Below, piece by piece: positions 26,453 through 52,761 of a DNA stretch of 64,000 nt. The position numbers and the translations under genes are program-made. Numbering within the stretch: position 1 is the first letter of the stretch; every line of letters begins with the position of its first letter. The notes beneath the pieces were generated by a model. It saw only the letters and a list, made by a program, of their open reading frames with translations. It was not told where the DNA came from and made no database searches. Source of the DNA: Pseudomonas sp. NC02 (GTDB lineage: Bacteria; Pseudomonadota; Gammaproteobacteria; Pseudomonadales; Pseudomonadaceae); NCBI RefSeq assembly GCF_002874965.1, contig NZ_CP025624.1, forward strand, positions 5,518,001 through 5,582,000. Reading direction: 5' to 3'.

Positions 26453-26463
26453 GCTTCTATCCT

Positions 26464-28479: not shown

Positions 28480-28988
28480 CACTGGCCTCCCGCCGGCGCA
28501 CCGGTCTGACCGCTGCCGGGCTGGACGCCCACATGCACGTGCCGGATCTGGCTGATGCCGCCGGCAATCTGGTCGCCCTGGGAGATGATCTTGCCGCTCT
28601 GCGTCAGGGTCGGCGTATCAATGTTCACCGCCTGGCTGGCGCGGATATTCAAGGTGCCGGTTTCAATGTCGATTACCCGCCCGCGCTTGAAATGAACTTT
28701 GTCGCCTTCGTCGGTATAGATCGCCACTTCACCCGGCGCCAGGGACTGCAAGCGATAGCGACGGTCGGCCACCACCAGCACGATGGCATGGGAGCGGTCA
28801 CCGCCCAGGAAGGTGGCGATGCCTTCAGCACCCGCCAGAGGGTTGCTGGTAAAACCGTAGGGTTCGAAGTGCTCCATGTCGTCGTTCACTTCGCCTGCCG
28901 TCAGGCGCATTTGCAGCGATTGCAGCTTGGTGGCCGAGTGGGCGAGCACGACAGTGCCGCGCGCCAGCAGGCGAGTCAGTAAGCTCAT
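28479..28988 (-). CDS. Mu gp45-like baseplate spike protein
   Basis: The 169-residue product is the central spike that pierces the target envelope. It has an N-terminal OB-like region (about 30-90) and a C-terminal beta-helix (GTLNIRASQAVNIDTPTLTQ). Near its end HVHVG gives the HxH motif that binds iron at the spike tip of Mu and P2. The ATG at 28988 has AAGGAA upstream; in-frame starts from 29033 overlap the hub gene. Confidence 0.9.
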   Translation of the reverse strand: MSLLTRLLARGTVVLAHSATKLQSLQMRLTAGEVNDDMEHFEPYGFTSNPLAGAEGIATFLGGDRSHAIVLVVADRRYRLQSLAPGEVAIYTDEGDKVHFKRGRVIDIETGTLNIRASQAVNIDTPTLTQSGKIISQGDQIAGGISQIRHVHVGVQPGSGQTGAPAGGQ

Positions 28989-29004
28989 GGAAATTCCTTG
29001 GTGG

Positions 29005-30042: not shown

Positions 30043-30045
30043 GGG

Positions 30046-31284
30046 TTACTCCCTGACCACTTGCAGGTCCGCCGGTGGCAGGAAGCCCGGATGGGCCACC
30101 CGATTGCGCTGCACCACCTCGCCCACTCGCGTCGCGTCACCGAACCGCTGATAGGCCAACAGCAAGGCGGGCATGCTGCGCATCGGCGTCAGATTGACCA
30201 GCCGGACACCGGACGAAGCCACCGCCGTCAGATGCGCGAACATCTGTTGGCGCAGGTCGTTCAGCGCAACATAGTGCCCGGCGTCGGCCTTCAATGCGGC
30301 TTGCCACATGGCTTCGTTCAGAAGGTCACGCAGCATCAGCACATCGTCGGCCACCGGCACTTCGCGGCGCTGCACCGGCTGTGCCGCCTGTTGCGCCAGG
30401 GATGGCGTGGTACTGAGGGTCACCGCTTTTGTCGCCACCGGTACGTCCGCCAGCCAATGGGCGATCTTCACCCACAACGCATCCTGTACCAGGTTGGCAG
30501 TGGCTTGCACCGTCGCCACGCTGTCCTTGCCGGTGGTCAGCTTCGGCACGTCGATAGTGCGAGCCGCTTCCACCTGCTGCGAGAGGTTGGCCAGCATGCC
30601 GCGATAGCCGTTGCGGGCAAATGCCTTCAACTCTTTCAAATCGCCGAGCAAGCCCTTGAACTCGGCGCTCAATTCCTTGGGCACTTCCTTGATGGCTTTG
30701 ACCAAGGCATTCAGGTCGCCATACAACTGAATCAGTGGGGCAAATTGCTGCTCAATTACCTGGTAAACCTCTGCCAGGCCATTGCGCAACGCCTGGATGC
30801 CCACCCGCGCCTGCTTCACCAGTGCGACGGCCTGCTCAAAGCGCAGCACCGCCGAACCCAGCAAACTGTCGGCCGACACCAGCAACAGCTGGCGGGTATT
30901 GACCGCCGTAGTGGGAAACTTCAAAGGTTCGTCGGGATAGAACTTCAGGGCAAAGGTCACCAGCCCGCCGTCCTGGCGGGTTTGGGTCATCTCGCATTCG
31001 CCGACCTTGACCTGCAACCGTCCAAGCCATGGGTGCACCAGCTCGCCGGCGCCCTCCTCCAGGGCCTTGAGCAACTTGTCGCGTTGCTCCAGGCAATCCT
31101 CGCCCACTACAAATGCCGTCAGCTCATGCACCCTGGACTGTTGGCCCAGCCCTTCAAAAAAAGGCAGGTCGCGCTGAGGGTATTCGTGCAACTGGCCCTT
31201 CTTGCCGACCGGGACTTTCGCCTGGTCAACCCAAAACCCGACGCCACGAAACGACGCCGGCAACAAACGATCACGCCAGCTCAT
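30046..31284 (-). CDS. Mu gp43-like DNA circularisation/tail protein
   Basis: The 412-residue product begins SWRDRLLPASFRGVGFWVDQ, typical of the DNA-circularisation N-terminal family (Mu gpN, gp43), which in tails is a structural protein near the hub. It lies between tape measure and hub as in Mu. The ATG at 31284 has GGAGG upstream; an earlier in-frame start at 31320 would sit deeper inside the tape-measure gene. It overlaps that gene by 14 nt. Confidence 0.88.
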   Translation of the reverse strand: MSWRDRLLPASFRGVGFWVDQAKVPVGKKGQLHEYPQRDLPFFEGLGQQSRVHELTAFVVGEDCLEQRDKLLKALEEGAGELVHPWLGRLQVKVGECEMTQTRQDGGLVTFALKFYPDEPLKFPTTAVNTRQLLLVSADSLLGSAVLRFEQAVALVKQARVGIQALRNGLAEVYQVIEQQFAPLIQLYGDLNALVKAIKEVPKELSAEFKGLLGDLKELKAFARNGYRGMLANLSQQVEAARTIDVPKLTTGKDSVATVQATANLVQDALWVKIAHWLADVPVATKAVTLSTTPSLAQQAAQPVQRREVPVADDVLMLRDLLNEAMWQAALKADAGHYVALNDLRQQMFAHLTAVASSGVRLVNLTPMRSMPALLLAYQRFGDATRVGEVVQRNRVAHPGFLPPADLQVVRE

Positions 31285-32887
31285 TGGAGCCTCCAAGGGA
31301 CAGGGAACGGTAGCCGACACGTGGGGTGACGCTCAGGCCGGGCTGGTTGGTTCTGGGCTGGTCCACCCGCAGGCCCGCCGGTGCATTGTCGAAGCTCACC
31401 CGCAAATCGCCGTTGAGCTGCGTGCGGTTGTTGGCAGCGGTTTGTTGCAGCAGCGAACTGGAGCTGGACGCCAGCGGTGATACCAAGCCAGGCCCCTTGC
31501 GGAACCAGGATGGGTTACGCGCGCTTTCGGCATTACGTTCCTGTTGCTCGGTGGTCAACTCCAGCACACTGCCGGTCGCCTGGTTGATCACTTCACCCAG
31601 CCCACCGTTGAACAGCTTGCGAATCGGTGCGGTGATCACCGCAAGCTTCTCCGACAGCGCGGTGAACCAACTCAGCACCGGTGCCCACATGGCTTCAAGT
31701 TGCTCCATCGGATGCCAGTCGTCGAACAGGCCACTCAACACTACAAAGGCGTCCTGGGCCTGCAATTTGATATCGCCCCAGATCGAGGCGAATGCACCGC
31801 TGACGCTACCCCAGACGGCAGAAACCTTGTCCAGGGGCGACCAATCGAAGTAACTGCTGACGATGGTAAAAGCCGCCAGCGCGGTGAGTTTGAAGTCACT
31901 CCAGATCGCCGCAAACATCTCACTGATCACGCCCCAGTTGGCAATGATTTGCCCTTGGGGTGACCAACTGAACAGGCTTTTCATGAACTCGACCACCGGC
32001 ACACTCAGTGCCTTGAGCAAGTCCCAGAGGGCCGCAAAAAAGCCGCTCAACGGCGTCCAGTTGTTGACGATCAAACCCATTGGCGACCAGGAAAACAGTG
32101 TGGTGAAAAAGCCGACCAAGGGCTGCGCCATCACTTTCAGCGACGTCCACAACCCGGCAAAAAAGCCTGTGATCGGCCCCCACAAGCGCATCACCTGTTC
32201 CAGCGGACGAAACGCAAAGACGGTCTGGAAAAACTCGCCCAAGGTTCCAATCGCCGCCATCACCCGTTCGCCAAGCCCGACAAAAAATGCCGAAATCGGC
32301 TTCCAGTTGGCAACGATCAAGCCTGCCGCCACGGCAATGCCTACAGCCACCAAAACTATCGGATTGGCGCTGAGCACCAGCTGCATCAAGCCCAGTGCCT
32401 GAGACACGCCGGTGACGGCCGCCTGCATCGCGGTAAACGCTACTGCGCCGGCAGCCAGGCCCTGCACCAGTTGCGGATTTTCGGTGAGCACCTGGGCCAA
32501 CGTCGTCAGCAACGGCTCCAACCCGACCACCACCGCCGTGACGGCCGGCAACAGCGCAGTACCAAACGCCACCGACACCTTGTCCAGCGACGCGTTGAAA
32601 TCCTTCAGCCCTTGCGCCGCCGTTTCGGTAACGCCCTGCCCCACGGCGGCATTGACCTCGCCGACCTCAGCCTTGAACGCCAGCGCCGATTTGATACCGC
32701 TGATAAACGGTGCCGCCAGCCCACCGCCCTTTACCAAACCGGCGATATCCAGCTTGCCGAGACCGGTCTGTTCCAGGTTCTGCCTGAAGCGCCCGACCAT
32801 GGCCTGCAGCGCAGCAAGCTTGGGCGACAGCTGGTCGATGCCGGTCAGGCGCACGGCGGTACTTTCTACTTTCTGAGCTTCTGCCAT
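31271..32887 (-). CDS. Tape measure protein, Mu-like module
   Basis: The 538-residue protein sets the tail length. The N-terminal third is helical with hydrophobic stretches (IVLVAVGIAVAAGLIVANW). Residues 195-401 consist of five tandem repeats with a period of 41 residues (the last 42), each ending with W and containing FF/FA, LF, W and SP at fixed positions (for example FSWSPMGLIVNNW). The ATG at 32887 overlaps the stop of the frameshifted chaperone form (TGATG). It is shorter than the 730-residue tape measure of the P2-like module, which predicts a shorter tail. Confidence 0.9.
   Translation of the reverse strand: MAEAQKVESTAVRLTGIDQLSPKLAALQAMVGRFRQNLEQTGLGKLDIAGLVKGGGLAAPFISGIKSALAFKAEVGEVNAAVGQGVTETAAQGLKDFNASLDKVSVAFGTALLPAVTAVVVGLEPLLTTLAQVLTENPQLVQGLAAGAVAFTAMQAAVTGVSQALGLMQLVLSANPIVLVAVGIAVAAGLIVANWKPISAFFVGLGERVMAAIGTLGEFFQTVFAFRPLEQVMRLWGPITGFFAGLWTSLKVMAQPLVGFFTTLFSWSPMGLIVNNWTPLSGFFAALWDLLKALSVPVVEFMKSLFSWSPQGQIIANWGVISEMFAAIWSDFKLTALAAFTIVSSYFDWSPLDKVSAVWGSVSGAFASIWGDIKLQAQDAFVVLSGLFDDWHPMEQLEAMWAPVLSWFTALSEKLAVITAPIRKLFNGGLGEVINQATGSVLELTTEQQERNAESARNPSWFRKGPGLVSPLASSSSSLLQQTAANNRTQLNGDLRVSFDNAPAGLRVDQPRTNQPGLSVTPRVGYRSLSLGGSNELA
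31685..32305 (-). repeat. Five 41-codon repeats in the tape measure gene
   Basis: Trp codons at residues 195, 236, 277, 318, 359 and 401 mark five units of about 123 bp. The encoded units share the pattern W-x-P-[IL]-S-x-F-F, then L-F-x-W-S-P, although the DNA has diverged. Confidence 0.85.
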
Positions 32888-33314
32888 CACTGCACCTGCT
32901 GCATCGCATTGATCCGTTGCGCATGCTCCAGGGATTCCCGGAGCGTATCCAAAGGCCTGGCCAGCATCTGTTCGGGATCAACCTTCCAGAACCAGGCCAG
33001 GTCATAGGCCACCGCAATCAGCTCGGCGACGGAGCCTGCGCCGCACTCATGAAAAAACCAGCGACGGCCCAGCTCAGCGCGTTGAAGTCCATCAGGTCGA
33101 GCTGGTTGACCGACGACGGCGGGATACCCGCGCACACGGCGATGTACTTGGCGGCGACGTCAAGGTCCAGACTCACGTCTTCGCCCTTGTCGATCTTGTA
33201 CGGCAGCGCCTTGATTGCCCGCACCTCCTGCACCGTCGGGCGGCGCAGGGTGAGTTCGGTCAATGACTCGCCGTGGGCCTCGATGGCCGCTTGCAGCTTC
33301 ACCGTATCGGTCAT
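32887..33314 (-). CDS. Tape-measure chaperone, long form by -1 frameshift (Mu gp41/42-like)
   Basis: Ribosomes that slip back one base at 33051-33057 (T TTT TTC in frame, residues 87-88) read on for 54 more codons to a stop at 32887-32889, giving 142 residues. The extension contains AVAYDLAWFWKVDPEQM and reads like real protein. Its stop overlaps the tape-measure start. Many contractile and siphophage tails make such G and GT or E and E+E' pairs, and position and overlap here are exactly as expected. Confidence 0.8.
33018..33314 (-). CDS. Tail assembly chaperone, short form (Mu gp41-like)
   Basis: The zero-frame product has 98 residues (LQAAIEAHGESLTELTLRRP; RAIKALPYKIDKGEDVSLDL) and fits the Mu gp41/phage tail assembly chaperone family that coats the tape measure before tube assembly. 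It starts with an ATGA overlap with the tube gene. The slippery site lies ten codons before its stop. Confidence 0.88.
   Translation of the reverse strand: MTDTVKLQAAIEAHGESLTELTLRRPTVQEVRAIKALPYKIDKGEDVSLDLDVAAKYIAVCAGIPPSSVNQLDLMDFNALSWAVAGFFMSAAQAPSPS
33051..33057 (-). promoter_or_regulatory. Predicted -1 ribosomal frameshift site (T TTT TTC), Mu-like module
   Basis: In the zero frame the codons are GGT TTT TTC ATG, giving the heptamer T TTT TTC. Slipping back by one joins the short chaperone frame to an open frame of 54 codons that otherwise has no good start. Confidence 0.8.
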
Positions 33315-33658
33315 TGCCAGGTCCCCTTGATGCCTTCGAATTTCAGCTCGATCACGGCATCATCGCCCTTGGCCACCGGCTCTTCCACCAGGTAGGCACC
33401 GGCCAGCACGTAGACCTTGCCGTTGTTGAATTCGCAGGTGACGGTCATGTCGGTGCCGGCGATCAGTTGCTTCAATGGAAAGTCCGGCGTGTGCAGCGCG
33501 GTAACTTTGAAAGACGGGGTGATGTCGGTTTCCTTATAGAAACCCGGCACCACGGTTTCCCGCTTGACGGCCATCAACGGTGCTTCGCAGCCGCCGTTGA
33601 TGGTCAGTTGAGCGCCGTCCACTTTGACGTAGCAGGTGCCCGCAATCAGTTGACCCAT
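33311..33658 (-). CDS. Tail tube protein, Mu-like module
   Basis: The 115-residue product resembles Mu gpM (tail tube family, GQLIAGTCYVKVDGAQLTI; VPGFYKETDITPSFKVTALH). It forms the inner tube that is driven through the target envelope. A hairpin separates it from the sheath gene upstream, and it overlaps the chaperone gene by 4 nt. Confidence 0.92.
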   Translation of the reverse strand: MGQLIAGTCYVKVDGAQLTINGGCEAPLMAVKRETVVPGFYKETDITPSFKVTALHTPDFPLKQLIAGTDMTVTCEFNNGKVYVLAGAYLVEEPVAKGDDAVIELKFEGIKGTWQ

Positions 33659-33670
33659 GATGTTTCTCCC

Positions 33671-33696
33671 AAAAATAAGCCCGCACTCGGCGGGCT
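33671..33696 (-). terminator. Terminator-like hairpin between sheath and tube genes (Mu-like module)
   Basis: On the minus strand a 7-bp stem AGCCCGC/GCGGGCT is followed by TTATTTTT. It stands between two genes that must both be highly expressed, so it is probably leaky, used for RNA processing, or passed by antitermination. Confidence 0.7.
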
Positions 33697-33722
33697 GGAA
33701 TCAGTTGCGAAAAGCGCGGGGC

Positions 33723-35219
33723 CTACACCGCCGCGTCGTACTGCAAACGGAACTGGTTGAGCAGCGCGAACACCCGCAGCCCGTTGACGTAATCCGGCGG
33801 GAACAGCACGTTGACCCGGCTCGGGTCCTGGCTGTCGCGCTCGACGATCAGGTGCTCGGCGAACAGCTCGGCGTTCTCCACATGGCCTTCCAGTTCGAGC
33901 TTGGCGTACTGGGCAATCAGCTCACCGCGGATGGTGCTCGGGGTGACGATCGGCTGGCCGGCGCCAAAGCGCGTGCCGTCAGCAGCGAGTTTGTGGCGCC
34001 CGTACTTGCTGGTGATCACGCTCTGCAGGCGGCGCACGATAAAGGCCGACTGGTGCAGGGTTTCGCTGTCCAGATAGGAATTGTCCGCCTGGCCGAACGC
34101 GTTCTTCTGGTAAGTGGTGATCGCCCGCTGAATGCGCACGTAACCGCCTTCGTAGTAAGCGGTGGCGATGCCGTAGTTGAGCAGCGATTGGCGCTCGGTC
34201 AGAGTGAAGCGCTCGCTCGCGTCGGCCGGATCGAGGCCCGGCAAGCTACCGCTTTGGGTCGGACGACTGGCATCGGCAGAGATGAACACCGCCGTGCGTG
34301 CAGCCAATGCTGCGGCCTGGACCCAGAACGGTTGCGGCACGCCCGGCTCCATGGCCTGGATGGTCACGTGCTGGTCATTTCGCCCTTGCCCGGCCGCCAC
34401 CAGGGTGCCGATAGTGCCGCGCTTGGCGGTGTAGACGTGGCCGAACAGTTGCTTGGCCCACGACCAACGACCGCTGTTGTCATCCATCACCGCTTGCCAG
34501 GCGTTGAGGCTGGTGGTGTCGGCCCAGGGCATGCAGATGAACTCGAACGGCTCGTCGCCCAGCGCAGCCAATGCCGCGAGCTGGTCCGGCACACCGGCGC
34601 CCGCCGCCATTTTGCCGAGCACGGCGGTCAGGCCGTCGGGGGTTTGTTCGCCGTTGCTCTGGCCCAGGCGGTTGAGCTGCAGGCTGATGTCGTTGCCACT
34701 CTCACCGGTCCACTTGGCGGTCAGGGTGACGGTGCCATCGGCGGCTACCGCACTGACCGGCAGGTCGGCACTGGCGTTGATTTTCAGCGCCAGGGCGGTG
34801 GCAGCCACGGCAGCCGTCGCACCATTGATCACGGTCGCTTGAACCCGGGTGCCGCCGACGTACAGGCTGAGAATGCCACCTTGGGTCGCGGCGCCGGTCA
34901 GCTTGAGCTCGGCCTTGGCCGCGCTGCCTTCGGTGCTGTGCAGCGGCAGGCACCAGATCTCGCCCACCGGGTCACTCTTGCGGAACGTCTCGTACATCGA
35001 CGCCAGCATCGAACCCTGGCCACCGATACGCTTGGCCATGGCCGCGCTCGATACCAGCACCAGGCTGCCGATTTCCGGGCTGGTGACGTTGTCGTTGACC
35101 TGGGCCACGATCAGCCGGCGCAGGGCCGACGACGCACTATTGGCCGCCGAATTGTCCATCTCGGCGTAGAACAGCGGCACACGAATGTCCGCCGGAATAT
35201 GACTGAATCCGATCGCCAT
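33723..35219 (-). CDS. Contractile tail sheath protein, Mu-like module
   Basis: The 498-residue product matches Mu gpL in length and pattern: N-terminal SHIPADIRVPLFYAEMDNSA and C-terminal PDYVNGLRVFALLNQFRLQY. It forms the outer sheath whose contraction drives the tube. The ATG at 35219 overlaps the DUF2635 stop by one base (TAATG); an in-frame start at 35294 would duplicate that coding region and was rejected. Confidence 0.94.
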   Translation of the reverse strand: MAIGFSHIPADIRVPLFYAEMDNSAANSASSALRRLIVAQVNDNVTSPEIGSLVLVSSAAMAKRIGGQGSMLASMYETFRKSDPVGEIWCLPLHSTEGSAAKAELKLTGAATQGGILSLYVGGTRVQATVINGATAAVAATALALKINASADLPVSAVAADGTVTLTAKWTGESGNDISLQLNRLGQSNGEQTPDGLTAVLGKMAAGAGVPDQLAALAALGDEPFEFICMPWADTTSLNAWQAVMDDNSGRWSWAKQLFGHVYTAKRGTIGTLVAAGQGRNDQHVTIQAMEPGVPQPFWVQAAALAARTAVFISADASRPTQSGSLPGLDPADASERFTLTERQSLLNYGIATAYYEGGYVRIQRAITTYQKNAFGQADNSYLDSETLHQSAFIVRRLQSVITSKYGRHKLAADGTRFGAGQPIVTPSTIRGELIAQYAKLELEGHVENAELFAEHLIVERDSQDPSRVNVLFPPDYVNGLRVFALLNQFRLQYDAAV

Positions 35220-35401
35220 TACTTGGCTCCCTGTGTTTTTGCCGCCTTGACGGCTTTGGTTGTGATGTCGCCATCGGCCAGACGTCGACGCCACCAGGCG
35301 TTGTCCGGGACTTCGCGGCCTTCGGCGGGCAACAGATCGCCCGCCTCCGGGTCAGGTACGGCACGGCCGGAAACCGGCAGTACGGTGATGCGTTTGCTCA
35401 T
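35219..35401 (-). CDS. DUF2635 (Mu gp38-like) small tail protein
   Basis: The 60-residue product has the family core VPDPEAGDLLPAEGREVPDN, then AWWRRRLADGD. It always lies just upstream of the sheath gene in Mu-like tails; its role is unknown. It overlaps gp37-like by 4 nt (ATGA) and the sheath gene by 1 nt. Confidence 0.92.
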   Translation of the reverse strand: MSKRITVLPVSGRAVPDPEAGDLLPAEGREVPDNAWWRRRLADGDITTKAVKAAKTQGAK

Positions 35402-35988
35402 GGTTTTACCTCGGCAGAAAACGTCATTTCCAGGCGCCCGTCGGGGCCTGGGCGTTGCAGGTTGGGGTCGGCTGGGTCGATGGCATCGACCCGCACCGTC
35501 ACCCCGTTGAAGGACGGCAAAGCGTCCAGTTCAAGCTCGAGCCAGGTTTCCGCCGGCTGCGTGCTGAGGTTGCGTCCCAACTGGCTCTCGAGAAAAAACC
35601 GCAGCCGGTACAACCCGCGAACCTTGCTGAGCAACAGCCATTCGCCAGCGTCGTACTGGATGGGCTCGTAGAACCCCTCGGGCCTGTAGCCCACCAGCGC
35701 CCGCCAGACCTCGGCGCGCAAGGCATGCAGCTGGTCCATCGCCTGGGCTTGCTGGCCCTCCGGCAAATCCAGCACCAGCACCACGCCAAAATGTTCGCGC
35801 AGGGGTTGGCGACTGCTGTTTTGCGCAGCGTTAGGGCTGGCCTTGTCATTGATCGGCGTCACGACCGCCTGGGGTGAGTCGAGCACTGGCAGGTTTTGCA
35901 GCGCGTCGAGGTCGAGGCCGGCGCGGATGTGTTGGTTGAACGATGGGCAGTGATCCCGAAGATGACTGACCAGGGAGGTGATCTTCAT
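35398..35988 (-). CDS. Mu gp37-like tail terminator protein
   Basis: The 196-residue product fits the DUF1834/gp37 family that caps the tail. Typical parts are LREHFGVVLVLDLPEGQQAQ and YRPEGFYEPIQYDAGEWLLL. It is the first gene of the Mu-like module and begins only 17 nt after the terminator that closes the P2-like module, leaving no obvious room for a separate promoter. Confidence 0.9.
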   Translation of the reverse strand: MKITSLVSHLRDHCPSFNQHIRAGLDLDALQNLPVLDSPQAVVTPINDKASPNAAQNSSRQPLREHFGVVLVLDLPEGQQAQAMDQLHALRAEVWRALVGYRPEGFYEPIQYDAGEWLLLSKVRGLYRLRFFLESQLGRNLSTQPAETWLELELDALPSFNGVTVRVDAIDPADPNLQRPGPDGRLEMTFSAEVKP

Positions 35989-36004
35989 GGCATCTCACCG
36001 GGCA

Positions 36005-36027
36005 ATAAAAAACCCGCAACGGCGGGT
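36005..36027 (-). terminator. Terminator between the two tail modules
   Basis: On the minus strand the hairpin ACCCGCCGTTGCGGGT is followed by six T residues. It lies after the gpD stop and directly before the gp37-like start. Confidence 0.87.
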
Positions 36028-36052
36028 GGGTGAATGGGGATTATTGGAGGTG

Positions 36053-37060
36053 TCATTCAGGTGCGGACAACCCGCTCGCCTTGACTGTGCAGCGGTAGCT
36101 CTCTTTGCGCTTGCCGCTGGCCGTCACCGTATCGATCGACCAGCGCCCTTGCATGAAGCCGGGCCAGGTCTCATCCAGCAGTAACAGCCCTTCAGCCCCC
36201 AGCGCCGGATCGCCCGGGCAGACCACATTGATGACCAGACCTTCACGGCCAACCCTGCGCATCTCGCCTTCAGCCGCAGCCCGGGCTTCTTCTTCGCTTT
36301 GATAACGCTGCGACAGAATTTTGAACGGCGCGAAACCGACCTCTACTTCACGTTTTTTACCGGCAGATGCATCCCACCAGGACGCCTGACCACCATTGAA
36401 TTTAGCGCGGCTTGTCTCGGTAAAGCTGGCACTGATGAACGCATGGTCGCCGGGGCGATTATCGCGGGTTACCGACAGCGGCACGTCTGGCAACACCTTG
36501 CCCGACAATGTGGTGATCTGGCCTTTGCGGCCCAGTACGTACAGCTCGTCAACCGGCTTGGCCACTGCATCAAAACGCCGGGCAAGCCGGGTCAGGAAGC
36601 TCATGTCGCTTTCATTGGTCTGGTCGATATGGCTGATCATCTGACCGTCCAGGTCCGGCGCCACGCGCGGTGAAAATCCATAGCGTGTCGTCAGTTGGCG
36701 AAACAGTGCGCCCAATGTGATCGGTCCATGGCTGGCGGTGCGACGCTGTTTGAATTCGTGCTCGTCAAACGGCGCCGCGGTGGCGACCAGTACCAGGCGC
36801 ATGGGAAACAGGTATGGCGTGCGCTGAGTAATCTTGAACAGGCCTTTATCTACCAGGCCCGACTCGAGATACCCGACACGCAAACCGATCCTGCCGCCCA
36901 GATCGGGCAAGCCCTCAAGCCCTTCAATGTCGAGGGTCAGCTTGAGCTGGTCAGACACGAAACCCGCAGTGTCGGTATGTTCCCACTCCAGCAGTCGCTC
37001 GTTGAGCAACACGGCATTGGCCCCGTAAATCTCCACTACCGGTGTGAATCCTAGTGCCAT
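36053..37060 (-). CDS. P2 gpD-like tail hub protein
   Basis: The 335-residue protein is the P2 gpD family (late control protein D), equivalent to PA0628 of R2 pyocin. It contains PVVEIYGANAVLLNERLLEW, SPRVAPDLDGQMISHIDQTN and ESDMSFLTRLARRFDAVAKP. It forms the hub on which the spike sits. It is the last gene of the P2-like module. Confidence 0.94.
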   Translation of the reverse strand: MALGFTPVVEIYGANAVLLNERLLEWEHTDTAGFVSDQLKLTLDIEGLEGLPDLGGRIGLRVGYLESGLVDKGLFKITQRTPYLFPMRLVLVATAAPFDEHEFKQRRTASHGPITLGALFRQLTTRYGFSPRVAPDLDGQMISHIDQTNESDMSFLTRLARRFDAVAKPVDELYVLGRKGQITTLSGKVLPDVPLSVTRDNRPGDHAFISASFTETSRAKFNGGQASWWDASAGKKREVEVGFAPFKILSQRYQSEEEARAAAEGEMRRVGREGLVINVVCPGDPALGAEGLLLLDETWPGFMQGRWSIDTVTASGKRKESYRCTVKASGLSAPE

Positions 37061-37069
37061 GAATCCTCC

Positions 37070-37282
37070 TTAATCCCACGCCGAAACCGGACTTTTCGCC
37101 ACAGGGCGCACGCTCAGTTCCGGCACGATCACGCCAATGCCGGCAGGCAATACCGCGCCATGCTCCGCAAGCTCGGGATTCAGGCTCCACAGTGCTTCCT
37201 CCGCCGCATCATCGCTGCGGCCCAGTTCACGGTAGAGCAGCAAGTTCACCGAGTCACCGGCAATACTTCGAACTTTACGCAT
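37070..37282 (-). CDS. P2 gpX-like tail protein (LysM type)
   Basis: This 70-residue LysM-like tail protein has GDSVNLLLYRELGRSDDAAE, LNPELAEHG and GIGVIVPEL. P2 gpX and PA0627 of R2 pyocin hold the same place. It overlaps gpU by 8 nt and precedes gpD. Confidence 0.93.
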   Translation of the reverse strand: MRKVRSIAGDSVNLLLYRELGRSDDAAEEALWSLNPELAEHGAVLPAGIGVIVPELSVRPVAKSPVSAWD

Positions 37283-37658
37283 TGACGAACTCCTCCAATG
37301 TCAGCGTCCAATTGATCAGCATCGCCGTGCCGTCGTCGATCACGTTAGCCTGCTTCTCGTCCACCGACTTGATCGTCCACAACCCCCAGTTACGACCTAT
37401 GCCATCTACCAGCGGCAACGGCGTACGCATGGCTTGCAACGCACGAAGTTCATCCAGCCGCGCCATCCCTGTCGCCCGCGCCGCCTTGCCACCGAAGGTC
37501 AATGTCTCCAGGGCCTGGCCGGTCTGGCTGGATTTGGGTTTGCCGGCAATAATCTCCAGACTCACCCAACCACCACTGCTCACACGACCAAGCGTGTCGT
37601 AGGCAAACCCGCGCGACAGCCCGAAAATAAAACTACCCAACACCATTTGTTGTCGCAT
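37275..37658 (-). CDS. P2 gpU-like tail protein
   Basis: The 127-residue product fits P2 gpU/PA0626 (VLGSFIFGLSRGFAYDTLGR; LETLTFGGKAA; RNWGLWTIKSVDE). The ATG at 37658 overlaps the stop of the tape-measure gene (TGATG); a GTG one codon earlier is also in frame. Confidence 0.92.
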   Translation of the reverse strand: MRQQMVLGSFIFGLSRGFAYDTLGRVSSGGWVSLEIIAGKPKSSQTGQALETLTFGGKAARATGMARLDELRALQAMRTPLPLVDGIGRNWGLWTIKSVDEKQANVIDDGTAMLINWTLTLEEFVNA

Positions 37659-39850
37659 CACACCATTCCATCGGTCAGTGCTGCGTCGCGTCGCGTCGCC
37701 AGCAGGTTGTCCATCGATAACGGCCTGAACTGCGCCTCGATCTGCTGCACCACGATTGCCGCCAGCTGTTGATAGTTGGCCTGCTCGGGCGCGGTGATGG
37801 TGATCTGCGGGGCGAAGTTGATTTGCCGATTATCGGCTTGAGCATTGGAGAGGTTTTTGCTGACATCTGTGGGTGGAGGGAGGCGGTCGGCAGGGCTCGA
37901 AAACTTTTCACCTAACCACGCGCTGATGTTGCTGCCGATGTCGCTGCCGATGACAGTGCCCAAGGCACCACCGACATACCTACCGACTGCACCGCCCACA
38001 ACCAACCCCACCCCATTGCCGATAACGGGTACAACGGTACCCAGCAACCCCCCGGCGGCTGCACCCACGACCTGGCCAATAGCCGCGCCGGCGAACTGGC
38101 CTGCAATCCCACCTGCCGCAGAACCGGCGGCGGAGCCCATCAGCTGTTTATCTCCCGTCACAGCACCCTTGACGAAATCGAAGCCGGCGTCTGCCATGAC
38201 CATCGCAGGACCTGCCCATTTGGCGAGCTTGGCGGTTTTGCCGGACAAGCCCCACGTCGGGCCGGCAGAAGGCTTGGCATTTTTGGACGTGCCCTTGCCT
38301 TTTTGGCGGTTCTTGTTTGTGGAGTTGCCTTTCTTCCTGGAGCCGCTGCCGGGACTTGTATCGCCTTCGCGCAAAATCTTCCCGGCCACCTTGTCGAAAA
38401 CCTTGTCCTTCACGGCATCGAACACGCCGCTTAAAAGCGGCCCCATTACCGCGGCAGCCACCGTGACAGTGGCAGTCGTCTTGGGCAAAGCTTCAGCCAA
38501 CCAACCCACGCCGTTGACCAACGCGGTCATCGCCGTCAGCGTGGTATTCACGATCGGTGCCATCGCCGTATCGCTGGCAGTGTCCAGCCGTGTGGTGCTT
38601 GCGTCGAAGGCCTGCCGGCGCGCTTGTGTGGAGTCGGCACGAAGCTCCGCCGAACGCACGACTGAACCCTGCGCGCCCACGGCCGAGGTGGCATACGTCG
38701 ACTTGTCCGCCACCAGCGAGAAGGCCTGCTTCACACTGTCGACTGCCGGCATCAGGCTCAGGATCGACTGGTTGCCGTCGAACAGCTGTGTGGCCAACGC
38801 CGCCTGTCGTTGCGCAGGCTGCGCCTTGAGCGCTTCAAGTACCGTCACCAACGTTTGCGGTGCGTCTTGCTTCATCTCGCCCGCGAGTACTTTGGGGTCA
38901 AGCTTGAGTTCTGCCCAAGCACTGCGCTGGGCCTCTGAGGCGTTTTCACCTTTTGCCAGGGCGGCGCTGATTTTTTCCACCCCAACACCCGTGGCACCTT
39001 TGCTGTTGCCAGCGTTGAGTAACGCTGCCGAGAGTGCCGCTATCTGTTCAGGGCGCATGCCAGCCGCCATCGCGGCGGCACCCTGGCCTTGTACAACGCT
39101 ACCGATATCTGCAGCCTCAGCGTTCAGCGAGACGCTGGTGCCCAACACGTTTGTCGCGTCTGCCAGATCCAGAGCTTGCCCACGGTCGAGCTTCATCGAC
39201 GCGCGCCACCCGCCGATGATTTCGCCAGCATTTTTAACGTCGATCTTGAAAGCCGTGGCCATGATCGCGGAGTCACGGGCGAACTGTGTCAGGTCAACCT
39301 GGCGCGCCGCGCGATCGATGTTCCCCGAAGCGTCGACGCGCTCACTGCCGATACCGGACTTTGCCGCCACATACTCGACCTTGGCCAGATCGACCGCACT
39401 TGCACCACTCGCCGCCACCACCGGCTTTGTCGCCATGGCAAGGTTAGTTTCGCGCAGATGTTTGCGCTCACGCCCTGCAAACCCCAGCAACTGATCCAGG
39501 TCGGTCATCGCCGCGTCCAACATCTGCGACCGCGTCCCCGAATCAGGAACTTCGGAGGCCTTGGCACCGCTCGCCGCGTTGCCAGATTCGATTTGTCGGG
39601 CGTCCATCAGGTTCAGCAGCGAGGCGTTGAACAACTCCAGCGTGTCAATAAGTCGAGCCTGCCCTGCAACCAGTTGGCTGATCTGCTGGCCGGCCGAGTC
39701 GCCCGGGACCGTATCCAGAAAGGAGGGTGTCACAAGCGTTGGCGCAATAGCGTTGATACTGGCGTAGGACTCTGCTCGATCAAGTGAGCCAAAAGGCGCC
39801 CCGCCATCCTTGGCGATGGCCGACCTCAGTCCATATTCACTGTTTGCCAT
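37658..39850 (-). CDS. Tape measure protein, P2-like module
   Basis: The 730-residue tail-length ruler has a conserved phage TMP region in the middle (SIVQGQGAAAMAAGMRPEQI; LSAALLNAGNSKGATGVGVE) and a C-terminal quarter that is extremely rich in Gly, Ala and Val with many GxxxG steps (AGGIAGQFAGAAIGQVVGAA). That quarter could line or cross the target membrane once ejected. The ATG at 39850 has AGGAG upstream, and that ribosome site overlaps the stop of the frameshifted chaperone. It is 192 residues longer than the other tape measure. Confidence 0.92.
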   Translation of the reverse strand: MANSEYGLRSAIAKDGGAPFGSLDRAESYASINAIAPTLVTPSFLDTVPGDSAGQQISQLVAGQARLIDTLELFNASLLNLMDARQIESGNAASGAKASEVPDSGTRSQMLDAAMTDLDQLLGFAGRERKHLRETNLAMATKPVVAASGASAVDLAKVEYVAAKSGIGSERVDASGNIDRAARQVDLTQFARDSAIMATAFKIDVKNAGEIIGGWRASMKLDRGQALDLADATNVLGTSVSLNAEAADIGSVVQGQGAAAMAAGMRPEQIAALSAALLNAGNSKGATGVGVEKISAALAKGENASEAQRSAWAELKLDPKVLAGEMKQDAPQTLVTVLEALKAQPAQRQAALATQLFDGNQSILSLMPAVDSVKQAFSLVADKSTYATSAVGAQGSVVRSAELRADSTQARRQAFDASTTRLDTASDTAMAPIVNTTLTAMTALVNGVGWLAEALPKTTATVTVAAAVMGPLLSGVFDAVKDKVFDKVAGKILREGDTSPGSGSRKKGNSTNKNRQKGKGTSKNAKPSAGPTWGLSGKTAKLAKWAGPAMVMADAGFDFVKGAVTGDKQLMGSAAGSAAGGIAGQFAGAAIGQVVGAAAGGLLGTVVPVIGNGVGLVVGGAVGRYVGGALGTVIGSDIGSNISAWLGEKFSSPADRLPPPTDVSKNLSNAQADNRQINFAPQITITAPEQANYQQLAAIVVQQIEAQFRPLSMDNLLATRRDAALTDGMV

Positions 39851-39855
39851 CCGCT

Positions 39856-40559
39856 CTACTCCTGTTTGACGCCAAGGCGAGTGATCGCGATGTCGTAGCG
39901 GCGCAATGCTTTTCCAGCGTCCCAATCGAGGATCTCCGCTTCATTTACCGAGTAAATGAGCGGAACGATATCGAGGATTACTTCGATATCGCGCTCCGAA
40001 AGAAGTCCGCCGGCTTGTTTAAAAAATCGTCGATGCGCTCCTGCAGTTCCGTCCAGTCAGGCACGGTCAGGCCGGCGAGATCGGGAATCATCAAGCCAGT
40101 GCAGTGGGCGGTGATGAACTCGGCGCGCTCTTTGTTGGTGGCGAGTTTTTTCATCACTTTGGTGGCACGCAATGCAGGCATTTCCAGGGTGACGGCGGTG
40201 AGGCTGCGACCGGCCGTATCGAGTGGCAGCAGCAGCGAGACGTGCTCGCTGGTTTGCGACTCCCGTGGCTGATCGTTAGCGTTGAGGAAAAACGAGGCCG
40301 GGCGGGTCGACATCTCGTGCACGTACTGCGCGATGCTGACGTAGTCCGGACGCTTGAGCTGGTCGAGCTCATGTTCAGAAAGGCCGGTGGCGAGTTTTGC
40401 GAGTTCGAAAAATTGGTCGTCTTCGTCGTCGCCAGCGCGAGCCAGGGCTTCTTTCTGTGGCGCGTAGAACAGCGGCTTGAGTTGGATCTTCTCGATCGTC
40501 TCACCGGTATCGGCGGTGATCGGGGACAGCAGGATGTGCAGCGGAGGCATCCAGGCCAT
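39856..40559 (-). CDS. Tape-measure chaperone, long form by -1 frameshift (gpE+E' type)
   Basis: After residue 181 (Asn, codon AAC) a -1 slip on the heptamer T TTA AAC leads into a frame open for 53 codons and ending at 39856-39858, 5 nt before the tape-measure start. The predicted long form has 234 residues and its extension (LSERDIEVILDIVPLIYSVN, then EAEILDWDAGKALRRYDIAI) looks like a folded domain. P2 makes its gpE+E' the same way. No good start codon would express the second frame alone. Confidence 0.82.
39978..40559 (-). CDS. Tail assembly chaperone, short form (gpE-like, duplicated domain)
   Basis: The zero-frame product has 193 residues. It seems to contain two related units, about residues 10-85 (LHILLSPITADTGETIEKIQ) and 108-190 (LLLPLDTAGRSLTAVTLEMP). 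Each has a strand-rich start, a helical middle (FFELAKLATGLSEHELDQLK; EFITAHCTGLMIPDLAGL) and a DxxxI/L end. The short chaperone of most phages has a single unit. A hairpin lies just upstream. Confidence 0.87.
   Translation of the reverse strand: MAWMPPLHILLSPITADTGETIEKIQLKPLFYAPQKEALARAGDDEDDQFFELAKLATGLSEHELDQLKRPDYVSIAQYVHEMSTRPASFFLNANDQPRESQTSEHVSLLLPLDTAGRSLTAVTLEMPALRATKVMKKLATNKERAEFITAHCTGLMIPDLAGLTVPDWTELQERIDDFLNKPADFFRSAISK
40017..40026 (-). promoter_or_regulatory. Predicted -1 ribosomal frameshift site (TTTTTTAAAC), P2-like module
   Basis: Zero-frame codons are GAT TTT TTA AAC AAG. Two overlapping slippery heptamers are in register, T TTT TTA (40020-40026) and T TTA AAC (40017-40023); the latter is one of the most efficient -1 sites known, used by coronaviruses. 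Confidence 0.82.
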
Positions 40560-40582
40560 GGGACAATTCCTTGGTGAAGTAT

Positions 40583-40604
40583 GGGAGCGAGCACACTCGC
40601 TCCC
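40583..40604 (-). terminator. Hairpin between tube and chaperone genes (P2-like module)
   Basis: A perfect 9-bp inverted repeat, GGGAGCGAG/CTCGCTCCC with a 4-nt loop, lacks a T-run. It may protect or process the mRNA and lower expression of the chaperone relative to sheath and tube. Confidence 0.6.
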
Positions 40605-40610
40605 AGGGGC

Positions 40611-41117
40611 TTACGGCATCAGTACCGCGCGGCGGGCGTCGCCCAGGATGTCGACGCCATTGAGCACGAACTTCTGCGTTCGCACATCGATGTCGATCAC
40701 CGGGATGCCGTTTTCGAGGCGGTTGTAGGTGCGGCAGGTCAGGATCAGCGTGGTGGTGACCTTATCGCCCATCTTCAGCTTGGATTCGGTCAGGGTTTTC
40801 AGCTTGCCGCCCACCGTGTGGTAGATGAAGTAGGTCTTGCCGTCCTGATCCTGGCCGGCTTCACGTACGTTCAGCAGGATGTCATCGCCTAGCTTCACAC
40901 CCAACGCCAGCATGATTTCGGGCCCCACGCCCTGCAGCGCCAGGGTCGCGTTCAACACCTTGCCGCTCTTGGCCATTTCTTCGGCAATGAAGCGGCCACC
41001 GGTCATGGGTTCCATATCAAAATCAATCACCGGCGGGGTGAACTCTTCCACGGTTGCGGACAACGGCAGGCCTTGAAGGGTGGCCGCCATGGCCTGTCTG
41101 ATTCGGTTGGTAAACAT
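40611..41117 (-). CDS. Tail tube protein FII, P2-like module
   Basis: The 168-residue product is the P2 FII/PA0623 tube family (EEFTPPVIDFDMEPMTGGRF; LALQGVGPEIMLALGVKLGD). Its start overlaps the sheath stop by one base (TAATG), so sheath and tube are made together. Confidence 0.95.
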   Translation of the reverse strand: MFTNRIRQAMAATLQGLPLSATVEEFTPPVIDFDMEPMTGGRFIAEEMAKSGKVLNATLALQGVGPEIMLALGVKLGDDILLNVREAGQDQDGKTYFIYHTVGGKLKTLTESKLKMGDKVTTTLILTCRTYNRLENGIPVIDIDVRTQKFVLNGVDILGDARRAVLMP

Positions 41118-42487: not shown

Positions 42488-42510
42488 AAAGCCCCTGCGA
42501 GAGGGGCTTT
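42488..42510 (-). terminator. Second hairpin upstream of the sheath gene
   Basis: AAAGCCCC/GGGGCTTT forms an 8-bp stem with a short loop. It lies 20 nt after a stronger terminator and just before the small gene that leads the sheath operon. Confidence 0.65.
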
Positions 42511-42519
42511 GGGCGGGCG

Positions 42520-42540
42520 AAAAAAAACCGCTTTCGCGGT
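42520..42540 (-). terminator. Intrinsic terminator after the fibre cassette (P2-like module)
   Basis: On the minus strand ACCGCGAAAGCGGT is followed by eight T residues. It begins 6 nt after the tail chaperone stop and splits the P2-like module into a baseplate-fibre part and a sheath-tube part. Confidence 0.85.
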
Positions 42541-46883: not shown

Positions 46884-47399
46884 CTACTCCGCCAGCGGCT
46901 TGTATTGGTCGGGGTCGTCGATGTTCGACACGTCCCAGGTGCAGGCAAAAAGCGGCTTGCCTGTGGGATCGTTGAGCAACGGCGGCCCGATATAGAGGGT
47001 TTGGATGAAGGTGACGGTCCAGGTGTCGTAGTCCGTCTCTGCGCTGGTGCGTATTGAAGGCGCAGCGACGATGCTGGTCGGCAGGTCGCACTGCGCCTGC
47101 GACAGGTTCCAGCGGTTATCCAGCACCAGGTCCATCAGTTGGCTGGCCAGGTCGCAGGCATCAAAGGGCAAGGCACCCGGGGCCACCATGGCCTTGAGTG
47201 AAATCCCCAGGGCATGGGCCTTGCGCCCCTCGCGGGAGCGAAGGCCCGGCCCATTGCCTTCGACCGTTATCAACACGCCGGTGTCGTTCGCGGCGCCCTG
47301 AAAGTCCTGATGAGTGCCGACCTTAAGTTCCGGAAACGCCCTGCGCAGTGCCTCGCTGATGGCCTGGGGCAGTTGGGAGGGTTTTTCGATAAGTGTCAT
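46884..47399 (-). CDS. PA0615-like tail protein
   Basis: The 171-residue protein lies between holin and spike genes, the position of PA0615 in the R2 pyocin cluster. The sequence (LPQAISEALRRAFPELKVGT; IRTSAETDYDTWTVTFIQTL) shows no catalytic motif and may be a tail completion protein. AAGGA precedes its ATG. Confidence 0.72.
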   Translation of the reverse strand: MTLIEKPSQLPQAISEALRRAFPELKVGTHQDFQGAANDTGVLITVEGNGPGLRSREGRKAHALGISLKAMVAPGALPFDACDLASQLMDLVLDNRWNLSQAQCDLPTSIVAAPSIRTSAETDYDTWTVTFIQTLYIGPPLLNDPTGKPLFACTWDVSNIDDPDQYKPLAE

Positions 47400-47421
47400 T
47401 TAAGTAGCGTCCTTGCAACGG

Positions 47422-47760
47422 TTACTGCGGGTCCCGGCCAGGGCCTTCGTTGACGCCGATGCGCTTGGCCGCCCAGCGTTCATAAAGGCCGATGGCCACG
47501 TCGGCGCCGGCCATGGCGGTCAGGCACCCAATGGCGCCGGCCGTCCAGATCGACATGCCGGCGGCGTAGCACAGCATCAGGGCTGATACCCCGCACACCA
47601 TGCAGGCCCCCGAACGCAGGGCCAGGCGCCGCATAAGCGACCAACCGCGGGCGCCTTCCTTGTCGGCGCGCCACATTTCTCCGGAAACCCCGCCAATCAC
47701 CGCCAATACGATGACCAGCCAGATAGGCATTTCCGCCAACGCTTGCTGCTCGTTTGTCAT
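47422..47760 (-). CDS. Holin (LydA/phage holin family)
   Basis: The 112-residue protein has three predicted membrane helices (about residues 12-28, 52-70 and 73-92: LVIVLAVIGGVSG; CMVCGVSALMLCYAAG; IWTAGAIGCLTAMAGADVAI) and a charged C-terminus, as in LydA-like holins and PA0614. It releases the endolysin for lysis. It is the first gene of the structural operon although the endolysin gene is 23 kb downstream. The ATG at 47760 has AGGAGG upstream. Confidence 0.88.
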   Translation of the reverse strand: MTNEQQALAEMPIWLVIVLAVIGGVSGEMWRADKEGARGWSLMRRLALRSGACMVCGVSALMLCYAAGMSIWTAGAIGCLTAMAGADVAIGLYERWAAKRIGVNEGPGRDPQ

Positions 47761-47848
47761 GTCACGCCTCCTGGAATGAGTGATACCGGCAGGTCGCCGG
47801 TTGTAGGTGTTTGTTTCAATTTGAATGGGTTCTCTAGGTAGGCATTCC

Positions 47849-47873
47849 AAAAAGCCCGGTTGCCCGGGCTTTT
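47849..47873 (-). terminator. Terminator in the tailocin leader, upstream of the holin
   Basis: A perfect 10-bp stem AAAAGCCCGG/CCGGGCTTTT with a 4-base loop ends in T5 on the minus strand. It stands between the promoter and the first gene. Confidence 0.83.
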
Positions 47874-48075
47874 CAGTAATGATGTCCTCGAACTTTCGGC
47901 GCTACTGGCGCGGTACGGTTCTTTCCTCAATGTTTTTCCGACCACGATCCCTGTCTGCCGGATAACTGCTTCTGGTGCTTTACGCTGCACACCCGGGCCA
48001 GTTGCCAACCCTCTGAACCGTTAAGGCCGGTTCATCGCTGCCTGTTCTTGAAGCGGTTTGAAACTAAAGAGCGTC

Positions 48076-48175
48076 GGCATCCTTGCCGGTATTGCCTGGC
48101 ATCCTTGCCATCGCTTCGATGGCGTCCTTGCCGGTGTTGCGTAACGTCCTTGTCTTCCTTGGCAGCATCCTTGCC
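48076..48175 (-). repeat. Five spaced repeats of GGCAAGGAYGC in the tailocin leader
   Basis: On the minus strand the cores GGCAAGGATGC, GACAAGGACGT, GGCAAGGACGC, GGCAAGGATGC and GGCAAGGATGC begin 22, 22, 23 and 22 bp apart. In plus-strand coordinates the copies start at 48076, 48098, 48121, 48143 and 48165. The period is not a multiple of three, so they are not simply a coding repeat. A period of about two helical turns fits protein binding on one DNA face. Confidence 0.8.
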
Positions 48176-48210
48176 GCCTCCACCAGGCCTTCTTGGCTGG
48201 CTTGAGATGA

Positions 48211-48239
48211 AGAATATGCATGTATGCATATACAGTCAA
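48211..48239 (-). promoter_or_regulatory. Predicted promoter of the tailocin structural operon
   Basis: On the minus strand TTGACT (48234-48239) and TATTCT (48211-48216) are spaced by 17 bp. Two operator-like palindromes overlap it, so repressor binding would block RNA polymerase. Confidence 0.83.
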
Positions 48240-48285
48240 TGCACAAACGCATTTATTTTTGCGCAAGAAATGCACAGGTGCATTT
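48217..48285. promoter_or_regulatory. Three operator-like inverted repeats (probable repressor sites)
   Basis: The sites are TGCAT-GT-ATGCA (48217-48228, in the promoter spacer), AATGC-ACAAAC-GCATT (48238-48253, over the -35) and AAATGCAC-AG-GTGCATTT (48268-48285, a perfect 8+2+8 palindrome). All share ATGC/GCAT half sites, and similar half sites recur at 49142-49166 upstream of the repressor gene. Confidence 0.72.
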
Positions 48286-48326
48286 ATAGCCCCGCAGGCA
48301 AAGGGTTTGGTGGTTTTACGCAGACG

Positions 48327-48354
48327 AAAAAAAGCCCGCTCACTGGCGGGCTTT
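48327..48354 (-). terminator. Terminator of the repressor gene
   Basis: On the minus strand AAAGCCCGCCAGTGAGCGGG is followed by CTTTTTTT. Confidence 0.87.
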
Positions 48355-48370
48355 GTCTTACACAGAAGGG

Positions 48371-49105
48371 TTAGCGGGCGTACATGCCCCACCAGAAAAC
48401 GTGACCAAGGATGCTGATCTGTTCATCCTGGATTTCCTGGAAGCTGTAGTCCTCGTCCGGATGTTCATCGCGGTTGAAGCTACGCAGGCGAATCCCGGAA
48501 GGCAGGCGATAGAGCTGTTTCACCCGTAGCTGGCCGTTGTGATTGATGGCGTAAAGATCGCCATCGACGATGTCACCAATCCCGCATTTGCCCGCATTGA
48601 CACCTACGGTGGCGCCGTCGCGCAGCACCGGCAACATACTGTTGCCGCGCACCGTCACGCACTTGGCCTGGTCGAACTGCACACCGTTATGCCGCAGGCT
48701 GCGCTTGCCGAATCGCAGGCTGGCCTTCTCGCTTTCCTCGATGACGAATCTTCCTGATCCAGCAGCCAATTCAACCTCGCGCAGAAAGGGGATCGACACC
48801 TCGTCATCATTAACGGGTGTTTCGTCGTCCCACAGGCTTATGTCCTTGAGTTCCGAATGCATCGGGTCACGCTCGTCCGACCGCACCGGCACCAGCCCTG
48901 CGCGCCCGCGCAGCTGATCGGTGCTGACCTGGAAGTAATCGGCGATGCGCGAGATGTGCTTGTCCGACGGATCCACGATCTTGCCGCTGAGGATCCGGGA
49001 CAGTGTGGATTGAGGCACGCCGGTACGCCGGTGAAGCTCCGTGGGGGAGATCCGGTCGCGGTCCAGCAGCTCTCTTAAGACGATAGAAACGTTGCGTTTT
49101 TGCAT
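48371..49105 (-). CDS. LexA/CI-type autocleavable repressor (PrtR-like)
   Basis: The 244-residue protein has an N-terminal helix-turn-helix (SPTELHRRTGVPQSTLSRIL, about 15-35) and a C-terminal S24 peptidase domain. The likely Ala-Gly cleavage site is in VELAAGSGRF, the catalytic Ser in VRGNSMLPVL and the Lys in GQLRVKQLYR. RecA-stimulated self-cleavage should switch on the tailocin, as with PrtR of P. aeruginosa. The ATG at 49105 was chosen over a TTG at 49141. No PrtN-type activator gene lies in the window. Confidence 0.9.
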   Translation of the reverse strand: MQKRNVSIVLRELLDRDRISPTELHRRTGVPQSTLSRILSGKIVDPSDKHISRIADYFQVSTDQLRGRAGLVPVRSDERDPMHSELKDISLWDDETPVNDDEVSIPFLREVELAAGSGRFVIEESEKASLRFGKRSLRHNGVQFDQAKCVTVRGNSMLPVLRDGATVGVNAGKCGIGDIVDGDLYAINHNGQLRVKQLYRLPSGIRLRSFNRDEHPDEDYSFQEIQDEQISILGHVFWWGMYAR

Positions 49106-52402: not shown

Positions 52403-52440
52403 GCATTTCTGCGGGGCGGGTTTCACTGTTCTACAGGCAA

Positions 52441-52571
52441 AAAAAAGGGGCGGTATGACCCGCCCACATTTTTTCCCTAGTCCCTGTGTTCCTTTTCATC
52501 GTCCTGATGAATCGCATCCTGCGAGGTTCCCTGAATCATCGTTCCTTGATGACTGTGTCAATCCGTGGACA
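52441..52571 (-). ncRNA. rsmZ: RsmZ small regulatory RNA
   Basis: On the minus strand a roughly 130-nt RNA starts TGTCCACGGATTGACACAG and ends in a GGGCGG/CCGCCC terminator with a T-run. It carries at least seven GGA motifs in hairpin-loop contexts (ACGGATT, AAGGAAC, AGGGAAC, CAGGATG, CAGGACG, AAGGAAC, AGGGAC). This is the signature of RsmZ, which sequesters the translational repressors RsmA and RsmE. Sequence and position next to fdxA agree with RsmZ of P. fluorescens. A good promoter and a GacA box lie upstream. Confidence 0.93.
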
Positions 52572-52579
52572 CAGGGCTG

Positions 52580-52743: not shown

Positions 52744-52761
52744 AGTAAGTGAATGCTTACA
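52744..52761. promoter_or_regulatory. GacA upstream activating sequence of rsmZ
   Basis: Read on the minus strand it is TGTAAG-CATTCA-CTTACT, differing from the palindrome TGTAAG-N6-CTTACA by one base. Its centre is about 180 bp upstream of the predicted rsmZ start, where the GacA box of rsmZ lies in other fluorescent pseudomonads. Confidence 0.88.

Follow-up and report, generated by a model that had tools for sequence, protein, structure and literature searches.

A candidate antitermination RNA in the composite control leader of a Pseudomonas tailocin operon

The window, by which we mean the whole 64,000-nt stretch of DNA analysed here, is a piece of Pseudomonas chromosome that contains the mutS...cinA-recX tailocin locus. 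All control parts described below, the leader, promoter and holin gene among them, lie on the minus strand, where the gene of a PrtR-like S24 repressor, which has a terminator of its own, precedes a palindrome-bearing promoter, the ~444-nt leader and the holin gene, in that order. The repressor (48371..49105), upstream of the leader, combines an HTH with a Peptidase_S24 domain (Pfam PF00717, 2.6e-18; HTH_26 and HTH_3). The promoter claimed in the original prediction is present at 48211-48239 as a sigma70-type TTGACT-17-TATTCT, overlapping ATGCAT-type palindromes (48216-48228, 48238-48254 and 48268-48285). A bare consensus match of this kind is not above chance (3 promoter-like sites in 32-50 kb of the window vs 4.7 expected); a related block, matching the promoter with at most two substitutions, was found upstream of the structured element E2 (described below) in all 62 of the related leaders examined. 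From the inferred start near 48204 the leader extends ~444 nt to the holin ATG at 47760, in agreement with the ~440 nt originally proposed. The holin gene (47422..47760; Pfam PF16085, 2.3e-53), the first gene past the leader, is preceded by the Shine-Dalgarno sequence AGGAGG at 47767-47772. For the comparisons throughout, we used the loci of the best 80 among 430 confirmed holin relatives, a set in which close relatives are over-represented. A search for PrtN gave no match in the source genome and was also silent in control genomes. As described in the available sections of PMC8544851, the SBW25 prophage 1 locus is a tailocin with a reported upstream LexA site, and its holin, PFLU1169, is harmful when expressed.

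A strong terminator had also been claimed ahead of the first gene, and we found there (47849..47873) an intrinsic terminator with a stem of AAAAGCCCGG/CCGGGCUUUU (-21.6 kcal/mol) and a U-tract. By our own count, a counterpart is recognisable ahead of the holin gene in about 70 of the 80 loci. Between E2 and this terminator lies a small hairpin, GCGC-CAGTA-GCGC (47899..47911), which is conserved in tailocin leaders, and a standard terminator tail within 130 nt of E2 was detected in only 9/15 and 22/30 tailocin-leader copies in two sets. The five further terminators or hairpins predicted inside the operon held up in part: three are hairpins followed by U-tracts (42527..42540, 36012..36027 and 33678..33696), whereas two have no adjacent U-tract, namely 42488-42510, a strong hairpin whose U-run is displaced by a few nt, and 40583-40604, a strong hairpin without a U-tract that we rejected as an intrinsic terminator. 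Terminator-like sites in 32-50 kb were not commoner than in shuffled sequence (23 vs 18.7, sd 4.5). The tailocin operons L209, L210 and L212-L216 carry a strong, sequence-conserved internal terminator, GGCCC(A/G)CTATGAAA(A)TAG(T/C)GGGCC with a U-run, of which L206 has a weaker form.

We then considered the repeat array, which had been placed at 48076-48175 and proved to be real. This array, E1 (48078..48173), consists of six CAAGGA[TCA]G sites on the transcribed strand (plus-strand first bases 48078, 48100, 48123, 48145, 48154 and 48166), and thus holds six CANGGANG in 96 nt (Poisson P ~2e-12, the chance of six sites in a 96-nt stretch at the window-wide rate); across the window, both strands taken together, CANGGANG is found 45 times vs 42.7 expected. 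This motif is the CsrA/RsmA/RsmE binding consensus, and five of the six sites can form a predicted hairpin in which a stem of at least 3 bp closes an AAGGAN hexaloop. Four CsrA-family genes are present in the genome. Clusters of at least four sites were identified in 59 of the 80 holin-linked loci (six sites in 44, five in 14 and eight in one). The leaders of the other 21 loci lack E1 and all of these loci keep E2, either within 800 nt of the holin (six loci: L054, L062, L063, L066, L072 and L073) or further upstream (15 loci, with E1 in 0/15 and boxA in 15/15). Because these 21 of 80 loci keep E2 without E1, the array appears to be an Rsm-type add-on and not a part of the antitermination apparatus, and the role in antitermination that the original prediction implied for it is not supported: it is a cluster of Rsm-consensus sites, and the 21 loci without it retain boxA as well as E2. 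On the same grounds, we rejected E1 as a set of nut- or put-like repeats. E1 was likewise rejected as a coding repeat, since spacings of 22 and 23 nt predominate. It is best read as an inserted module that would bind Rsm proteins.

An RsmZ RNA gene (117.9 bits) lies at 52440-52573 of the window, ~4 kb from E1, with a GacA-box match at 52744-52761. That match, by rsmZ, is the sole one in the window (at most two mismatches), and no GacA box was found near E1. The segment 48064-48196 aligns with the RsmZ model over its full length, at a weak score (20.6 bits, E 0.014; gathering score 44). A derivation of E1 from the nearby rsmZ gene was unconvincing, as the alignment score was reached by 15/500 plain and 22/500 spacer shuffles. 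A possible Rsm target, CAAGGACG (47408..47415), stands directly ahead of the start codon (ATG at 47399) of the operon's second gene (46884-47399) and overlaps the ribosome-binding region of that gene; CANGGANG occurs within the corresponding 62-nt stretch before the second gene in 55 of the 80 loci. In the P. karstica leader (L060, 2600-2950), a 9-nt tandem repeat expands the array to eight sites, and E2 and the terminator are lost.

Downstream of E1, the leader contains the nonamer CGCTCTTTA (48065..48073), hereafter boxA, which occurs once in the window (0.21 expected). Five 16S genes were found in the genome, and each has the identical 9-mer 161 nt upstream. boxA is where NusB/S10 binds in rRNA and lambda antitermination. 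Allowing one mismatch, we detected boxA ahead of E2 in 61 of 62 tailocin leaders, 56 of them with an exact match. Outside the 80-locus set, 11 of 36 E2 copies have it, vs 10 of 1080 control windows, a ~30-fold enrichment for these outside copies; the 36 include L190, L193, L196 and L201, none of which scores (11/32 without them). The other 25 of these 36 copies, including all three plasmid copies, have no boxA within 110 nt. Among the features of the leader, boxA is the most specific pointer to antitermination.

Between the array and the leader terminator lies E2 (47936..48042), a predicted 107-nt structured RNA composed of a closing helix, the hairpins P1, P2 and P3, and a short distal 2-bp helix. 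In 62 of the 80 loci, E2 lies no more than 800 nt ahead of the holin gene, and a slightly longer stretch around it comes in 49 distinct sequences; of the other 18, 16 have a copy in the genome (degenerate in L045) and two, L056 and L060, have none. In L070 and L076, E2 stands ~0.9 kb before the holin gene with other sequence in between, and a leader-type terminator directly precedes the holin gene. Mean pairwise identity of E2 was 97.2% (56 loci), compared with 72.6% at third codon positions of the holin gene and 81.6% in the adjacent spacer. BLAST searches with the leader gave matches in the E2 part in 27 plasmid records and 10 phage records, the latter including the Q8r1-96 tailocin and one phage counted twice. 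Using a covariance model of E2, we obtained matches in 225 of the 398 genomes sampled from the genus, in 91 of 348 genomes at the family level (4/19 genera with a match), in 6 of 293 genomes of the order draw (all from the same genus) and in 1 of 369 genomes of the class draw, which is the source genome itself. The genus survey gives best matches. To look for weaker or second copies, we took 26 of the 225 positive genomes, selected because their matches were weak or multiple; of the 43 places that this search listed, 20 were examined with longer flanks. Plasmid NZ_LT963394.1 has extra, weaker E2 matches at 88902-88989 and 90149-90221 (46.9 and 45 bits) beside a full one. E2 matched no Rfam 15 family above the gathering score, and in the literature covered, which took in few subscription journals, we recognised no paper on the E2 RNA or on Rsm sites in tailocin leaders. 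Neither E2 nor the array is mentioned in the accessible portions of PMC9378689, PMC2647930, PMC8544851, PMC7815802, PMC10305613, PMC4353343 and PMC7366521.

The fold of E2 was evaluated in two alignments. For a MAFFT alignment we selected 18 diverse sequences among the available ones; it recovered the closing helix and the three hairpins, with double-sided changes in 8 of 27 pairs. A model-fitted alignment of 50 copies (44 distinct rows), which leans towards the model, gave double-sided changes in 12 of 27 pairs (67 cells vs 11.9 in shuffles; 0/500), and 97.1% of E2 paired cells were consistent with pairing, compared with 28-44% when the partners were slid. Because five single E2 sequences fold no more stably than their shuffles (z -1.2 to +0.5), the case that E2 acts as an RNA, as its sequence variation indicates, rests on covariation and not on stability.

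We further compared the surroundings of E2 in phages, plasmids and prophages. E2 is directly 3' of cI in phage PseuP_224, cI lies one or two genes upstream of E2 in phages Aurca01 and Medea1, and a divergent repressor-like gene is upstream in phage Orimi01; recombination genes (ERF, YqaJ) are found in the operons after E2 of Orimi01 and Medea1. A small annotated hypothetical protein of PseuP_224 overlaps E2 (L088, 6009-6134) and is probably a misannotation. In plasmids L092 and L093, E2 follows a LexA-like/Cro pair, and in L093, one of three plasmids examined, a lytic transglycosylase gene and VirB genes come after E2; in plasmid L091, E2 adjoins an HTH regulator, with an IS element next to it. 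For the whole-genome and IMG/VR copies outside the 80-locus set, S24 repressors accounted for 13 of the 15 same-strand upstream ORFs scanned, which were chosen by size from 22 loci (L163, L186, L188, L190, L192-L194 and L197-L204; L164, L185, L189, L191, L195 and L196 were omitted); the upstream ORFs of L194 and L188 matched no Pfam family, and in L187 the opposite-strand ORF alone was scanned, with no family found. Downstream of E2 copies we observed RecT-like, YqaJ, Gp157, AAA_24 and tail genes together with many family-less ORFs. This outside set itself includes tail loci, as L190 has a tailocin-type leader terminator (placed as in L154) and E2 is followed by tail genes in L193 and L196.

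Of 30 such outside copies of E2, 17 have a sigma70 match of 9/12 or better in the preceding 160 nt, compared with 2.3% of 600 control windows (the 30 include L190, L193, L196 and L201, none of which scores; 17/26 without them). In 8 of the 17 promoter-positive copies, 28 to 48 nt separate the end of the -10 box from E2. E2 copies are kin, and these enrichments do not count independent events. No second E2 copy per phage record was found at E 0.1, and none was detected for the right operon. Taken together, these data make it most likely that operons under repressor control carry E2 in their nascent leader.

The original prediction held that the operon needs antitermination and that the factor may act as RNA. 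Strong, if indirect, support for this comes from boxA and the ultraconserved, covarying E2 between promoter and terminator, and from the comparable position of E2 in phage, plasmid and tail operons, but the carrier is not the array; the idea was most likely right in kind, with boxA and E2 as the carrier. We consider it probable that E2 is a put/nut-like cis-acting antitermination RNA within a composite control leader. In the mechanism that we propose, DNA damage would remove the PrtR-type repressor, as its PrtR/S24 family suggests, and polymerase would start at ~48204, transcribe the Rsm-site array E1, then boxA and then E2. By way of host NusB/S10 at boxA (a Nus dependence suggested by the motif) and of E2 acting as nascent RNA on the polymerase, the enzyme would be converted to a termination-resistant form that passes 47849-47873 and the internal terminators and reads the ~24-kb tail operon, if this is one transcript. 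No dedicated antiterminator protein was recognised in the locus, and E2 would work like HK022 put or lambda nut. E1, an add-on of some lineages, would probably bind RsmA/RsmE on the nascent leader and thereby couple output to Gac/Rsm; alternatively, should transcription end at the leader terminator, it may serve as a decoy.

Evidence from decay and from terminator counts bears on this proposal in both directions. In L060, E2 and the terminator are lost and boxA is changed; in L056, E2 is likewise lost and the terminator is the weakest of those measured (-10.3); and L045, with a degenerate E2 and a changed boxA, has the next weakest (-12.9), against a median of -18.4 for the list, from which loci without a recognisable hairpin were set aside. 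This co-decay of E2 and terminator is partial, resting on three loci with boxA altered in two. L145 is a counter-example, with a degenerate E2 but intact boxA and terminator, and the P. karstica operon (L060, L206) lacks E2 yet keeps strong internal terminators, in a comparison for which the E2-positive loci were hand-chosen and not random. Moreover, intrinsic terminators were not enriched after 25 phage, plasmid and prophage E2 copies, a test that leaves out L190, L193, L196 and L201: 11 were counted along the operon strand, compared with 12 along the opposite strand and 29 in the upstream sequence.

These data were weighed against other readings of the leader. Rather than work as a self-sufficient RNA, E2 could, together with boxA, be a nut-like site that recruits an antiterminator protein of N-like or NusG/RfaH-like type from a gene elsewhere. 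The presence of boxA agrees with this, as does the position of the phage E2 copies, which presumably is that of nutL, but tailocin, phage and plasmid copies share no recognised neighbouring protein. In addition, no antitermination family was found among 20 ORFs of the locus, which make up part of the operon (PHROGs), a result with which a host-wide protein would be compatible, and overall we regard such a protein partner as unlikely. It is quite unlikely that E2 is a leader RNA with some other job, such as a 5' stabiliser, a processed small RNA, a ligand-sensing attenuator or an element of translation control. A discrete fold with a tailocin terminator nearby could indeed yield a stable short RNA, and the lack of terminator enrichment after the phage and plasmid copies would fit this, but the association with boxA would be unexpected and the downstream genes vary. 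Across the 25 copies, the nearest operon-strand terminator is at least 559 nt off or absent within 2.5 kb, and therefore simple attenuation does not fit.

The leader as a whole, down to 47849, might instead be mainly an SOS-induced Rsm decoy of the RsmX/Y/Z type with incidental read-through, a role that is compatible with antitermination and that we hold to be decidedly improbable as the main one. Its attractions are the six CANGGANG in 96 nt, the full-length but weak resemblance of 48064-48196 to the RsmZ model (20.6 bits vs a gathering score of 44), the four CsrA-family genes and the CANGGANG ahead of the second gene in 55/80 loci; it is contradicted by the 21/80 loci that keep E2 without E1, by the lack of a GacA box near E1 (the window's one match being by rsmZ) and by the fact that E1 is not demonstrably RsmZ-derived. 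Far less probable still is that the conserved block is a DNA element, a recombination hot spot between tail clusters, rather than an RNA. The available part of PMC2647930 proposes a hot spot of recombination, with the conserved prtR-hol segment on one side and the endolysin gene on the other, but the compensatory changes in the E2 helices and the placement of E2 just past promoters argue against this.

Returning to antitermination by boxA and E2, we suggest more tentatively, and short of calling it probable, that the two make up a new, protein-free class of processive antitermination RNA that does the job of lambda N. It may be common to temperate phages, conjugative plasmids and domesticated tails of Pseudomonas, in which it would head long repressed operons, and in part of the P. 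fluorescens group an Rsm array would have been inserted that adds Gac/Rsm control. If true, a widespread RNA unrelated to put would show this strategy to be a common one, in use by phages, plasmids and tailocins alike, and it would explain how a ~24-kb tailocin operon is transcribed from one promoter despite internal terminators. The Rsm array suggests that control by DNA damage is linked to Gac/Rsm control of a suicidal weapon. E2 also offers a compact element for direct tests of action on RNA polymerase.

The leader resembles several known systems in its parts. E1 shares with the RsmX/Y/Z decoy RNAs the repeated GGA sites in small predicted hairpins, but it lies within a repressor-controlled leader, has no GacA box and scores below the RsmZ gathering score. 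With the rRNA (rrn) leader, the tailocin leader shares its nine-nt boxA, with no difference from the one ahead of the host 16S genes; it differs in heading an mRNA operon and in having a structured RNA 3' of boxA. In lambda nut, as in the E2 leader, boxA is followed by RNA structure in an operon leader, but nut has N as its partner, whereas no N-like gene was recognised among the 20 ORFs scanned here (PHROGs). E2 is far larger than lambda boxB, which is a short element by comparison, and its loops are almost invariant.

To our knowledge, long-distance control of termination by cis-acting RNAs has few known examples, and among those that need no protein HK022 put is the best studied. Like E2, for which this is read from sequence, put is a folded RNA soon after a regulated promoter, in its case a phage early one; it binds the zinc-binding domain of RNA polymerase. 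Put makes polymerase ignore terminators without a dedicated protein, as we propose for E2. The sections of PMC9378689 available describe put as ~70 nt long with two stem-loops and acting on polymerase without proteins, whereas E2 has 107 nt, a closing helix with three hairpins and, in many copies, boxA. No relationship to put by sequence or profile was found: at E 0.1 the E2 model matched nowhere in the complete HK022 record, in which the positions of putL and putR were not located, and in an unfiltered search of HK022 26000-40750, the best hit (17.2 bits, E 0.005; 26209-26334, minus strand) fell in a coding-like stretch and well below the weakest listed E2 copy (35.6 bits). Thus, E2 is, as judged by these comparisons, a separate RNA family and not a member of the put family, one that is proposed to work in the manner of put and nut.
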